Part shown: one piece after another, positions 15,611-18,124 of the stretch
Numbering within the stretch: position 1 is the stretch's first letter
How the letters are laid out: each line of letters begins with the position of its first letter
Origin: Prevotella sp.
GTDB taxonomy: Bacteria > Bacteroidota > Bacteroidia > Bacteroidales > Bacteroidaceae
DNA length: 32,242 bases
NCBI GenBank assembly: GCA_017548525.1
Contig: JAFYZV010000101.1
Span: 1-32,242 of the forward strand
Direction: 5' to 3'
Notes under the pieces: generated by a model
Database searches by the model: none
Told to the model about the DNA's origin: nothing
Seen by the model: only the letters and a program-made list of their open reading frames with translations
Made by a program: the position numbers and the translations under genes

Positions 15611-15690
15611 TATTCTGTCATACATCATTCCCTTGTGTCAGTTTTTTCAGTTTTTCTCTAAAAAATACTATCTTTATTCACACTTTTTCG

Positions 15691-15698
15691 TATCTTTG
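15691..15698 (+). promoter_or_regulatory. -7 box of the methyltransferase-nuclease operon
   Basis: TATCTTTG fits TAnnTTTG and is followed by CAACAAATAG. The expected start near 15705 gives a leader of about 80 nt that contains the hairpin at 15742-15757. The -33 region is T-rich without a clear TTTG. Confidence 0.7.
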
Positions 15699-15741
15699 CA
15701 ACAAATAGGTATCCCCTTTCACCTTATAATAGCAATGCTTT

Positions 15742-15757
15742 CACGCCGTTAGGCGTG
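15742..15757 (+). promoter_or_regulatory. GC-rich hairpin in the methyltransferase leader
   Basis: CACGCC (15742-15747) and GGCGTG (15752-15757) form a perfect 6-bp stem with a GTTA loop in an otherwise AT-rich leader, ending 27 bp before the ATG. There is no T run right after it, so it is not a standard terminator. It could tune translation or message stability, or mark an insertion boundary. Confidence 0.5.
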
Positions 15758-15784
15758 GTGTGTTCTTATAAATTATCAATCGTT

Positions 15785-16909
15785 ATGGCAAATACTAACT
15801 TAGCTAATGCGAAGACTGCAAAGAACGATGAGTTCTATACGCAATACACAGATATTCAGAAAGAGATAAACGCCTATCTGGAATATGACCCTAATGTGTT
15901 TCGTGGTAAGACGGTACTGTTGCCTTGCGACGATCCCGAATGGAGCAATTTTACCAAGTTCTTTGCGCAGAACTTTGAAATGTTTGGACTGAAAAAGCTA
16001 ATCAGTACAAGTTATGCCGTTGAATCAAAGAAGATAAAGGACTGGCAGCCGACGCTTTTTGAAACGGACAGTCCATACTACGATGCAGATAAGAGCAGAA
16101 CCAATGGCAAGATATTCGTCTTGGATGAAGACATAAACGGCGATGGGCGTTTCAATATCAATGATTTGCAATGGTCGTATCTTGAAGGTGATGGCGACTT
16201 TCGGAGCGATGAAGTTAAGGCATTGCGGGATGAGGCGGACATCATTATAACCAATCCGCCTTTCTCTCTGTTTCGTGAGTTTATGTTGTGGCTTATAGAA
16301 TCAGGAAAATTGTTTGTGTGCATTGGGAACATGAATGCAGTAGCTTATAAAGAAATATTTCCTCTTATAAAAGCTAATAAGATTTGGTTGGGAAATGGCT
16401 TTAGTGCAGGTAATGCTTATTTCGGAATTCCAGAGTCATCATCAAAAGAATATGTAGAAGGAGTTTATGACGCAAAGACCAATCTCGTGAAATTTCGTAA
16501 TTGCTGTTGGTACACCAACATTGATCATGGTCGTCGCCATGAGCCACTTCCACTGATGACGATGGAGGACAATATCCTTTATTCCAAGCACAAGGAGATA
16601 CGTGGGAAGGGATACACACATTACGAAAACTATGATGCAATAGATGTTCCATTCTATGATGCCATACCTTCTGATTATGAAGGACTAATGGGCGTACCTC
16701 GTTCGTTTCTTGATAAGTTCTGCCCAGAGCAGTTTGAGATTATAGGAAATGCGGAGGGAGATGCAGGCAAAGAACTTGGCTTTAGACCATATCCCCGTGA
16801 ATTGAGAAAGCAAAACAAAAGCCTAAGAGATGGACAGCCATATTACTTTGATGAGGACGGCATCCCGCAAAAGCCTTTTGGTAGAATTATAATCCGCAAA
16901 AAACAATAG
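15785..16909 (+). CDS. EcoRI-family adenine-specific DNA methyltransferase
   Basis: A 374-residue enzyme expected to move a methyl group from S-adenosylmethionine to the N6 of adenine in a specific DNA site. It fits the EcoRI_methylase family (PF13651): N-terminal [11 protein letters not shown] (14-24), the family block [17 protein letters not shown] (44-60), then the catalytic motif IV as TNPPF (156-160, followed by SLFREF). The later [17 protein letters not shown] is near the C-terminus. ATG 15785 matches the family start; the frame upstream to 15755 overlaps the leader hairpin. The nuclease gene begins 2 bp after its stop. The gene is visibly more AT-rich than the flanking genes, which suggests transfer. 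The target need not be GAATTC; that hexamer occurs within this gene at 16425-16430 and elsewhere in the window. Confidence 0.92.
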
Positions 16910-16911
16910 CT

Positions 16912-18087
16912 ATGCAAACAACATTATTGACAGACCTGACGGTCAAAGAGATTTGTGAGGGCTTTGTTTACAATCAGTTGGAGGGCAAAGGCCTGTTTGG
17001 ATGGTCGGGTCGGCTGACCATACAGCCAGAATACCAGCGTAACTATCTCTATGCCGAGAATGAAGGCAAAAAAGAAATGGCTGTCATTGATAGTATGCTA
17101 AAAGGTTATCCCATTGGCCTCATCTATTTCAACGAACCCGAAGAAGGCAAGTATGAAATTCTGGATGGACAACAGCGCATAACAAGTATCGGACGCTTTG
17201 TGACAGGAAAGTTTGCCATCAAGGACAAATTTGGAATGGAACAATACTTTACGGGGCTGACCAAAGAGGAACAGGAAAAGATACTATCATACAGACTGCT
17301 TGTCTATGTTTGCAATGGCACGGAAAAGGAAATCAAGGAATGGTTTGAAACTATTAATATTGCTGGTGTGCCATTGAACAAGCAGGAACTTCTTAATGCT
17401 ACTTATTCTGGGCCATTTGTAACAGAAGCCAAGAAAGTGTATAGCAACTCTCGCAGTCCGCAATTGCAGAAGTGGGGATGCTACATCAAGGGCAATGCAA
17501 ACCGTCAGGACATTCTTCATACAGCTCTTGCATGGGTGGCAAAAGGAGAGGAAAACATTGGCGGTTACATGAGTCTGCACCGCTACGAGAATAGTATCGA
17601 GGAACTACATACTTATTTCGACACGGTGATAGAATGGGCAAAGACATTGTTCGGCGAGACAAAAGATGAAATGAGAGGCTTGGAATGGGGAGCCTTTTAT
17701 GAGAAGTATCATTCCAATTCATATAACCCTGCCAAGTTGCAGCAACGAGTGAACGAACTCTATGCAGACGAGTTCGTAACCAACAAGCGCGGCATCTTTG
17801 AATATGTGCTCGGTGGAGAAACAGACCAATGTCTGCTTAATATCCGCATCTTTGAGGACAGCGTGAAGAAAACAGTCTATGCTCGTCAGACAAACGAAGC
17901 AAAAGAACAAGGTGTTAGCAACTGCCCAGAGTGTGCCAAAGGGCATGAGAATGTGCGAACCAAGATTTATAAGTTCAACGAAATGGATGCCGACCATGTG
18001 ACTGCATGGAGCAAGGGCGGTAGCACGGATATTTCAAACTGCCAAATGCTTTGCAAGACACATAATAGAGCGAAAGGCAATAGATAA
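16912..18087 (+). CDS. DUF262-HNH nuclease (probable restriction partner of the methyltransferase)
   Basis: A 391-residue, two-domain protein. The N-terminal DUF262/ParB-like domain carries [11 protein letters not shown] (37-47) and the signature DGQQR (85-89) within [15 protein letters not shown]. The same domain is found in GmrSD, BrxU and SspE, where it acts in nucleotide-dependent sensing or cleavage of phage DNA. A helical middle follows. The C-terminal HNH domain has Cys338 and Cys341 (CPEC), Asp361-His362 ([12 protein letters not shown]), Asn377, and Cys381/His384 (CKTH), which are zinc-binding and metal-catalytic positions. It begins 2 bp after the methyltransferase stop, so the two are translationally coupled. 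The natural reading is a restriction function held in check by methylation. DUF262 partners are usually seen in systems sensing modified DNA, so a methylation-dependent or phage-triggered role is an alternative. Confidence 0.88.
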
Positions 18088-18124
18088 CAAAAGATTGCCC
18101 ATCTCTGCACTTGTTAAACATATT

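Follow-up and report, generated by a model that had tools for sequence, protein, structure and literature searches.

An EcoRI-family adenine methyltransferase paired with a DUF262-HNH nuclease in Prevotella: a candidate methylase-guided restriction system

When an EcoRI-family methyltransferase stands beside a nuclease other than R.EcoRI, which of the two partners decides the DNA sequence to be marked and cut? The question is raised by two adjacent genes of a Prevotella sp. (GenBank assembly GCA_017548525.1, contig JAFYZV010000101.1, positions 1 to 32,242; this whole stretch of 32,242 nucleotides (nt) is referred to below as the window, and all of its elements given with start and end coordinates below lie on the + strand). 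The first gene, M (15785..16909; ATG at 15785, stop at 16909), encodes an EcoRI-family adenine-N6 DNA methyltransferase of 374 amino acids (aa), and the second, R (16912..18087; ATG at 16912, stop at 18087), a DUF262-HNH nuclease of 391 aa, the spacer between them being 2 base pairs (bp). Comparison with relatives makes it fairly probable, in our judgment, that the two genes form a methylase-guided restriction system, in which M would serve as the specificity subunit and R would follow M, i.e., a Type III-like logic combined with a GmrSD-like nuclease. The core of the argument is that the modules of M swap, invert and switch off while R stays (nearly) constant, which suggests that R takes its sequence specificity from M.

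Conserved pairing of the two genes

The protein M matches the Pfam family EcoRI_methylase (PF13651) over the complete model (positions 1-345 of 345; E 1.5e-121, 406 bits vs a cut-off of 26.4). Above the Pfam cut-offs, R matches GmrSD_N/DUF262 (E 1.7e-22; aa 36-165, 17017..17406) and HNH PF01844 (E 1.6e-8; 17923..18084) alone. Hence, the two open reading frames and the domains that the initial annotation had described, 2 bp apart, are indeed present. The NPPF catalytic motif of M (aa 157-160, 16253..16264) shows no variation among 53 aligned M proteins. In 56 aligned R proteins, chosen as open frames, the DGQQR motif (aa 85-89, 17164..17178) is invariant along with Q42-R43, F145 and N149, and so are, in the HNH domain, the four cysteines C338, C341, C377 and C381, D361-H362, N376 and N385. 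Since all the key residues of both domains are kept in these open-frame sequences, selection on a nuclease is indicated. Both proteins are also recognized by PADLOC, M by PDLC03297 (MTase_II, E 1e-84) and R by PDLC03418 (REase_II, aa 10-390, E 4.3e-92), so the pair, labelled Type II, is already familiar to annotation pipelines.

Conserved co-occurrence across genomes, which the initial annotation had proposed as a check, is what was found. Among 201 genomes of the same family, M occurs in 64 and R in 60, and 67 of the 72 near-full-length M genes (those covering at least 290 of the 345 model positions) adjoin R. In 65 of these R lies downstream on the same strand, in 46 cases no more than 60 bp from M; the other two are G157, where M is paired with a cut-off R, and G007, where the order is R-M. 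The remaining five M genes comprise three beside an R.EcoRI (this partner being 72-76% identical to R.EcoRI), one at a contig end and one standing alone (on contig C45 of the window's genome). Viewed from R, 51 of 58 genome loci have an upstream match to M, which in some is just a fragment or a disrupted gene; of the remaining seven, six offer no more than 571 bp of contig ahead of the R match, and the seventh (L058) is a lone R without its N-terminus. Of 170 confirmed stretches on viral contigs, the best 80 were kept and 79 examined for an upstream M (L226 was left out); M was matched in 75, in some just as a fragment, and the other four have 0-431 bp upstream. Plasmid records matched at E 1e-5 number 98 for M and 153 for R, of which 63 and 44, respectively, are matched over 80% or more of the protein. 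A sample of 395 genomes from the phylum yields 20 with M, 16 with R and three with a match to the R.EcoRI family PF02963, two of these above cut-off. The genome, viral, family and phylum samples overlap in part (e.g., the loci L100 and L101 repeat L010 and L011). Overall, the pairing of M with R is far beyond chance. For this family of R, the earlier statement that an EcoRI-type methylase does not usually protect DUF262 nucleases is thus wrong, since such pairing is the rule in the 201 genomes.

Modular variation of M and the R.EcoRI control

The relation between the partners is best seen in a close set of 30 loci, including the window, with R more than 84% identical to the window R (L036, whose R match has no N-terminus, and L007, whose M is cut by the contig start, were left out). 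In this set M is 89-100% identical per 15-aa bin up to aa 165, drops to 12-26% over aa 211-240, returns to 87-95% at aa 241-270 and becomes variable again past approximately aa 316. Two putative recognition modules are delimited by the alignment of relatives: module 1 (aa 196-240, 16370..16504), hypervariable and falling into discrete types, and module 2 (aa 320-374, 16742..16906), variable and exchanged by inversion in relatives of the Phocaeicola/Bacteroides type. R has no hypervariable block, its lowest 15-aa bin being 0.77 and its single last residue 0.76. The close set holds seven types of module 1 and four of module 2, differing even where R is 96-98% identical; e.g., L008 and L010 share 98% of R and 41% of the module-1 region (aa 166-240). 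Among the 57 locus pairs with R at least 90% identical, module 1 is below 50% in 40. The pattern recurs in the more distant clade 2 (29 pairs), where R is about 38-44% identical to the window R: the mean identity of module 2 is 0.04-0.14 and that of the backbone mostly 0.5-0.9.

The same module types return on different M backbones. Across 87 distinct M proteins, 11 types of module 1 and 21 of module 2 were distinguished, with 34 combinations among the 80 proteins typed for both (seven without clear module anchors were left out, and the 87 include an M gene on contig C155 of the window's genome, the partner of which is outside view); module-1 type 1 is loose (single linkage at 45%), so these type counts are approximate. 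The two modules of M combine freely, and most targets are therefore probably asymmetric, with methylation confined to one strand. Type III systems deal with one-strand methylation by their need for two sites in opposite orientation (PMC12707154, PMC3874151), and two opposed sites might, by analogy and only as a suggestion, be the solution for the M-R pair too.

A control is offered by M proteins whose neighbour is a nuclease of the R.EcoRI kind. Eleven such M were compared: five come from genomes belonging to the phylum of the window, and six are carried by plasmids of Pseudomonadota, Bacillota and Actinomycetota (L155, where an R.EcoRI-like gene has another methylase as its neighbour, was left out, as were L148/L149, which duplicate L166/L167). 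Their mean pairwise identity is 0.60 for the N-terminal backbone and 0.73 for either module (55 pairs), vs 0.65 for the backbone, 0.45 for module 1 and 0.22 for module 2 among the 29 M beside clade-2 DUF262-HNH (406 pairs). With the backbone matched at 0.6-0.7, modules 1 and 2 are 0.74 and 0.76 identical beside R.EcoRI (22 pairs) vs 0.36 and 0.21 beside DUF262-HNH (35 pairs), and in the 45 pairs with near-complete R.EcoRI (R identity 0.59-0.92; the partial-R locus L167 left out) every module is at least 0.5 identical. Modules are thus kept beside R.EcoRI and scrambled beside DUF262-HNH. It is therefore the partner that decides: the methylase modules are frozen by a nuclease reading its own target, and left free by DUF262-HNH; the same contrast argues that the modules read DNA.

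The control bears directly on the most conventional explanation, according to which the pair is an ordinary Type II system: R would recognize a fixed sequence by itself, and the variable regions of M would leave the R target unchanged. The Type II labels given to both proteins by PADLOC and the homology of M with M.EcoRI speak for it, HNH enzymes of Type II do exist (PMC4081073), and a weak correlation between R identity and module 1 (r 0.13) would fit it as well. Still, a fixed target of R is difficult to reconcile with modules conserved beside R.EcoRI and scrambled beside the DUF262-HNH protein, with an in-species inversion next to an identical R, or with M genes broken by poly-G or otherwise disrupted next to an intact R (both described below), and we regard this explanation as very improbable. 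As the first choice, a plain EcoRI-like Type II system is set aside on the strength of the R.EcoRI control.

Switching, broken partners and mobility

Loci of the Bacteroides/Phocaeicola type carry, in the stretch from M to R, silent copies of module 2 that are mostly in inverted orientation; most of these silent cassettes begin at the common repeat TTGAAATCTTAGG (1-2 mismatches). An exchange is seen within one species: in Phocaeicola massiliensis DSM 17679 (L038) and TSDC17.2-1.1 (L221, filed as a plasmid), a 394-bp segment (98.2% identical) is inverted between flanking sides that are 99.6-99.8% identical. M is the same in both strains over aa 1-322 while its module 2 is exchanged, and all 390 aa of R agree; L221 is without 97 bp of L038 that carry most of a second silent cassette. 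A tyrosine recombinase gene (Phage_integrase, E 6.6e-29) is located just downstream of R in 19 locus identifiers, representing 13 distinct loci, and silent cassettes or their ends are present in those of them whose contig covers the M-R stretch. A different kind of switch is suggested by a poly-G tract situated just ahead of module 2 in five M genes from four other genomes of the phylum: three genes carry G9, which is in frame, and two carry G10, which is out of frame, with R open in both.

A gene of the Bro-N family was also observed between the silent module-2 cassettes and R at L215:2487-3332 (Pfam assignment for L215) and at the counterpart positions of L038, L040, L057 and L063.

These observations, together with the constancy of R, led us to the following mechanism. 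M would methylate adenine in a target read by the two exchangeable modules located behind NPPF, as its family implies, and would thereby mark the host DNA. R, combining by its domains an NTPase-type (nucleoside triphosphatase-type) DUF262 with an HNH nuclease, would have no fixed target of its own; it would be recruited to, or activated by, M at unmethylated sites, hydrolyse NTP and cut. A change of a module in M, either by allele swap or by DNA inversion, would then re-aim marking and cutting in one step, and a loss of M would leave R harmless.

Loci with one broken partner bear on the last step. R is intact and M disrupted in five loci. In one of them, spread over contigs C230 (end of L069) and C164 (start of L068) of the window's genome, M is split, apparently by an insertion element with 18-nt imperfect inverted ends and a 6-bp ATTAAT duplication, and R of 394 aa is intact; G022 and L054 both have a frameshifted M, and the two G10 genes complete the five. 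Such tolerance fits an R that needs M; with a target of its own, the nuclease should be lethal in this situation.

Several points weigh against an M-guided R. First, the converse, a kept M with a broken R, occurs in three or four loci: G195 (its M running off the contig), G415, the distant G589, and L036 (L036:5150-6250), where an intact M accompanies an R whose initial 37 aa have given way to an unrelated open stretch. Broken genes therefore make a weak argument: R without M is tolerated, and this state is not commoner than the reverse. Moreover, the insertion or frameshift in M may silence R by polarity, another M in the genome may protect, or the disruption may be an assembly error. Second, Mantel tests link R identity to the N-terminal backbone of M (r 0.36) and, weakly, to module 1 (r 0.13, p 0.02) and to module 2 (r 0.12, p 0.09), so full independence of R and the modules is not established. 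Third, R of clade 2 has variable bins itself (0.33-0.82, the lowest, 0.33, at aa 91-105). Finally, the reading of DNA by the two modules is inferred from the EcoRI control and from their place after NPPF.

The initial annotation had envisaged host adenine methylation being read by the DUF262 domain, and a related explanation is that R is a sequence-blind sensor of the SspE/GmrSD kind, its DUF262 answering N6-methyladenine (6mA), or its absence, in any context, with M supplying the self mark. The known relatives GmrSD, BrxU and SspE do sense modified DNA, their domain serving NTP-driven control (PMC10952713, PMC11411939), and a context-blind sensor would tolerate module swaps and the switching-off of M just as well. 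However, such a sensor cannot separate self from phage DNA bearing other 6mA marks, it offers no reason for R being found so seldom without a single methylase family, and R is without DUF1524, the nuclease domain of GmrSD. Sensing of this kind seems unlikely to us, though it is a serious competitor; as originally stated, the reading of the host 6mA mark by DUF262 is unsupported, and the comparative evidence, with modules of M that vary beside a (nearly) constant R, leads more directly to M as the source of specificity, as the methylase-guided reading has it.

The two-gene unit (15785..18087) is homologous between unrelated flanks. The window was aligned with 12 locus identifiers, i.e., 10 distinct loci once the repeated L100 and L101 are discounted. 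DNA homology begins at window positions 15768-15785 (in L007 at 15826, its contig start) and ends at 18080-18094, and the flanks are unmatched in all 10 loci, save one stray 58-bp match in L013. With homology confined to the two genes, the moving unit would extend from start codon to stop codon, in some loci together with the last part of the leader. An empty site of the window was sought and not found; in 40 genomes of the genus, full-length relatives of the downstream gene are only ~50% identical. Along with the conserved pairing and the invariance of the DUF262 signatures (QR, DGQQR, FxxxN) and the HNH residues in 56 relatives, the homology confined to the two genes supports the description of M-R as a conserved, mobile, non-classical restriction pair, and to that extent the interpretation of the initial annotation is supported.

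Mobility invites a further explanation, namely that the pair serves chiefly as an epigenetic switch or as a selfish mobile cassette, with R not acting as a restriction effector in the host but helping the unit to move (in a homing-like manner) or being often inactive. Homology as a two-gene unit within unrelated flanks and the phase-variable M agree with it, as do the patchy occurrence (64 of 201 genomes), the presence on plasmids and viral contigs and the several broken R genes. On the other hand, the key DUF262 and HNH residues of R are invariant in the 56 open-frame sequences, implying selection on the nuclease. We consider this explanation improbable.

Returning to the methylase-guided reading, a more far-reaching version can be put forward tentatively, with somewhat less than even confidence. 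The pair might represent a distinct restriction class, in which a monomeric EcoRI-type methylase with two independently interchangeable modules is the sole specificity subunit of a GmrSD-like NTPase-HNH nuclease. Some lineages would possess a dedicated recombinase and silent module-2 cassettes re-aiming both marking and cutting, and others a poly-G on/off switch. M.EcoRI would come from the same module pool, frozen by the sequence-specific R.EcoRI, so that EcoRI could be the derived, locked form of a switchable ancestor.

The window locus and comparison with known systems

The window is contig C80 of a genome (G000) of 3.35 Mb in 255 contigs, estimated as 87% complete. The genes had been described as AT-rich against their surroundings; this holds in direction (guanine-cytosine content 0.412 in M and 0.440 in R vs 0.491 upstream, 0.482 downstream and 0.471 in the whole window), but the deviation is mild, because similar or deeper dips occur elsewhere in the window, at 1-1.0, 9.0-10.0 and 20-21 kb. 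A promoter and a leader hairpin of their own had likewise been claimed. A promoter-like TATCTTTGC with a TTT-like element upstream is located at 15669..15699 (one mismatch; three such places in the window vs 0.16 expected), which we take to be of the Bacteroidota -7 type. The hairpin CACGCC-GTTA-GGCGTG (15742..15757) is a single match, with none in 100 shuffles, and aligns with the CACGC...GCGTG portion of the relatives' leaders; the M leader as a whole folds no better than shuffles (z -0.39). The neighbours, by eye a glycosidase-like gene upstream and a thioredoxin-like gene downstream, both look ordinary. Scans of the window with Rfam (gathering scores) and for tRNA gave no matches, NCBIfam gave none over cut-off, and no useful relative of M was found among solved structures. 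The R profile matched solved structures weakly (E 0.02-0.06), including McrA, an HNH protein, and the DUF262 chain 7p9k.

Comparison of the leaders revealed a family inverted repeat, GATTGATAGT..ACTATCAATC, of which the window carries the 3' arm ATTATCAATC (15772..15781, one mismatch) without the 5' arm. With up to four mismatches, the repeat GATTGATAGT-N-ACTATCAATC is found upstream of 45 of 88 M genes (one gene, L001 = L065, is entered twice among the 45), ending 1-9 nt before the start codon, e.g., at L018:3877-3913 and at 10830-10865 of contig C155 of the window's genome. It is present in both clades, in none of nine M genes beside R.EcoRI and in 48 of 5000 random stretches of the loci. 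The exact pattern occurs at one place in the window's 3.35-Mb genome, ahead of the C155 M gene, and once each in G173 and G183, ahead of M; G139, G197, G124, G148 and G081 have none. A dedicated operator or a translation control is a possible role of the repeat.

Some loci show unusual neighbours or partners. The solitary M on contig C45 of the window's genome (L067:3776-4900) is an orphan without R, 75% identical to the window M and, by eye, of the same module-1 type. On contig C97 of this genome (L140, 5000-5784), two short genes, by eye similar to an MNT nucleotidyltransferase/HEPN pair, lie between the apparent 3' end of M and R. In L137:2501-4367 (contig C57 of G148), M and R are separated by an AAA_15 ATPase and a second protein, which matches DUF4276 below threshold; presumably the two resemble the RloA/RloB-like inserts of Type I loci. 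Downstream of R, three clade-2 loci carry a T5orf172 gene (L066:1571-2200, L137:6306-6941 and L216:1-354; named by Pfam for L137 and by sequence likeness for the other two). In L138:1187-2320 (contig C50 of G045), a third kind of partner directly follows an EcoRI-family M, DUF262-like with DGKQR for DGQQR and an HNH-like end (by eye). Finally, L130:759-2354 (contig C324 of G100) is a single open frame that begins like GldM (by eye) and continues as an EcoRI-family M; it may be a natural fusion, an insertion or an assembly chimera.

In the titles and abstracts listed by searches of an open-licence library, no paper on the M-R pair was found. Its place can be seen by comparison with known systems. 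With the Type IIP system EcoRI, the pair shares the Pfam family of M, and its relatives share the module-2 type (T2-2) of M.EcoRI, the module-1 cluster of which (T1-1) is loose. M.EcoRI is a single chain of 326 aa with the target GAATTC (PMC4081073). Unlike EcoRI, the partner here is DUF262-HNH rather than R.EcoRI, the modules are shuffled rather than conserved, and the order is M-R in 66 of 67 paired M genes, vs R-M for EcoRI. M.EcoRI is a textbook DNA methylase, but its family appears here to supply a plug-in specificity subunit whose two reading modules can be swapped, and the automatic Type II labels for the pair may mislead. If this is true, it would be possible to work out a recognition code pair by pair, with M.EcoRI and GAATTC as the anchor for one module pair.

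The DUF262 group is defined by three motifs, QR, DGQQR and FxxxN (PMC11411939), all found in R, which, like GmrSD, BrxU and SspE, combines DUF262 with a C-terminal His-Me/HNH nuclease. Unlike these, R has HNH PF01844 instead of DUF1524, a near-constant methylase partner and a length of ~390 aa; without DUF1524 it is not GmrSD proper. If the proposed mechanism is correct, the pair would illustrate a way in which a nuclease from the modification-sensing DUF262 group can be tied to unmodified targets. In BREX, PglX unites methylase and specificity factor for defence in one protein (PMC11341690), to which M may be likened; the pair differs in being two genes, and other BREX genes were not recognized by eye among the open reading frames of the window.

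With Type III systems the pair shares, as a sequence pattern only, a constant nuclease combined with a variable recognition region of the Mod kind, and phase-variable Mod is a known Type III feature. The mod genes of EcoP1 and EcoP15 have non-homologous central thirds, and specificity was inferred from this difference (PMC3874151). Unlike Type III, R has neither a helicase motor nor a PD-(D/E)XK Res, and M belongs to the EcoRI family with two modules. The phase-variable hsdS of Type I is similar in its two exchangeable recognition modules, inverted silent cassettes and nearby recombinase, and Type I subunit S genes appear in a survey of invertons in gut bacteria (PMC11892184). Unlike in Type I, the recognition modules reside inside the methylase itself, and R has no HsdR-type match; having neither a Res- nor an HsdR-type domain in R, the M-R pair is a member of neither Type III nor Type I. 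If the proposed mechanism holds, gut and rumen Bacteroidota would have, besides Type I hsdS, a second route to re-aiming restriction by DNA inversion.

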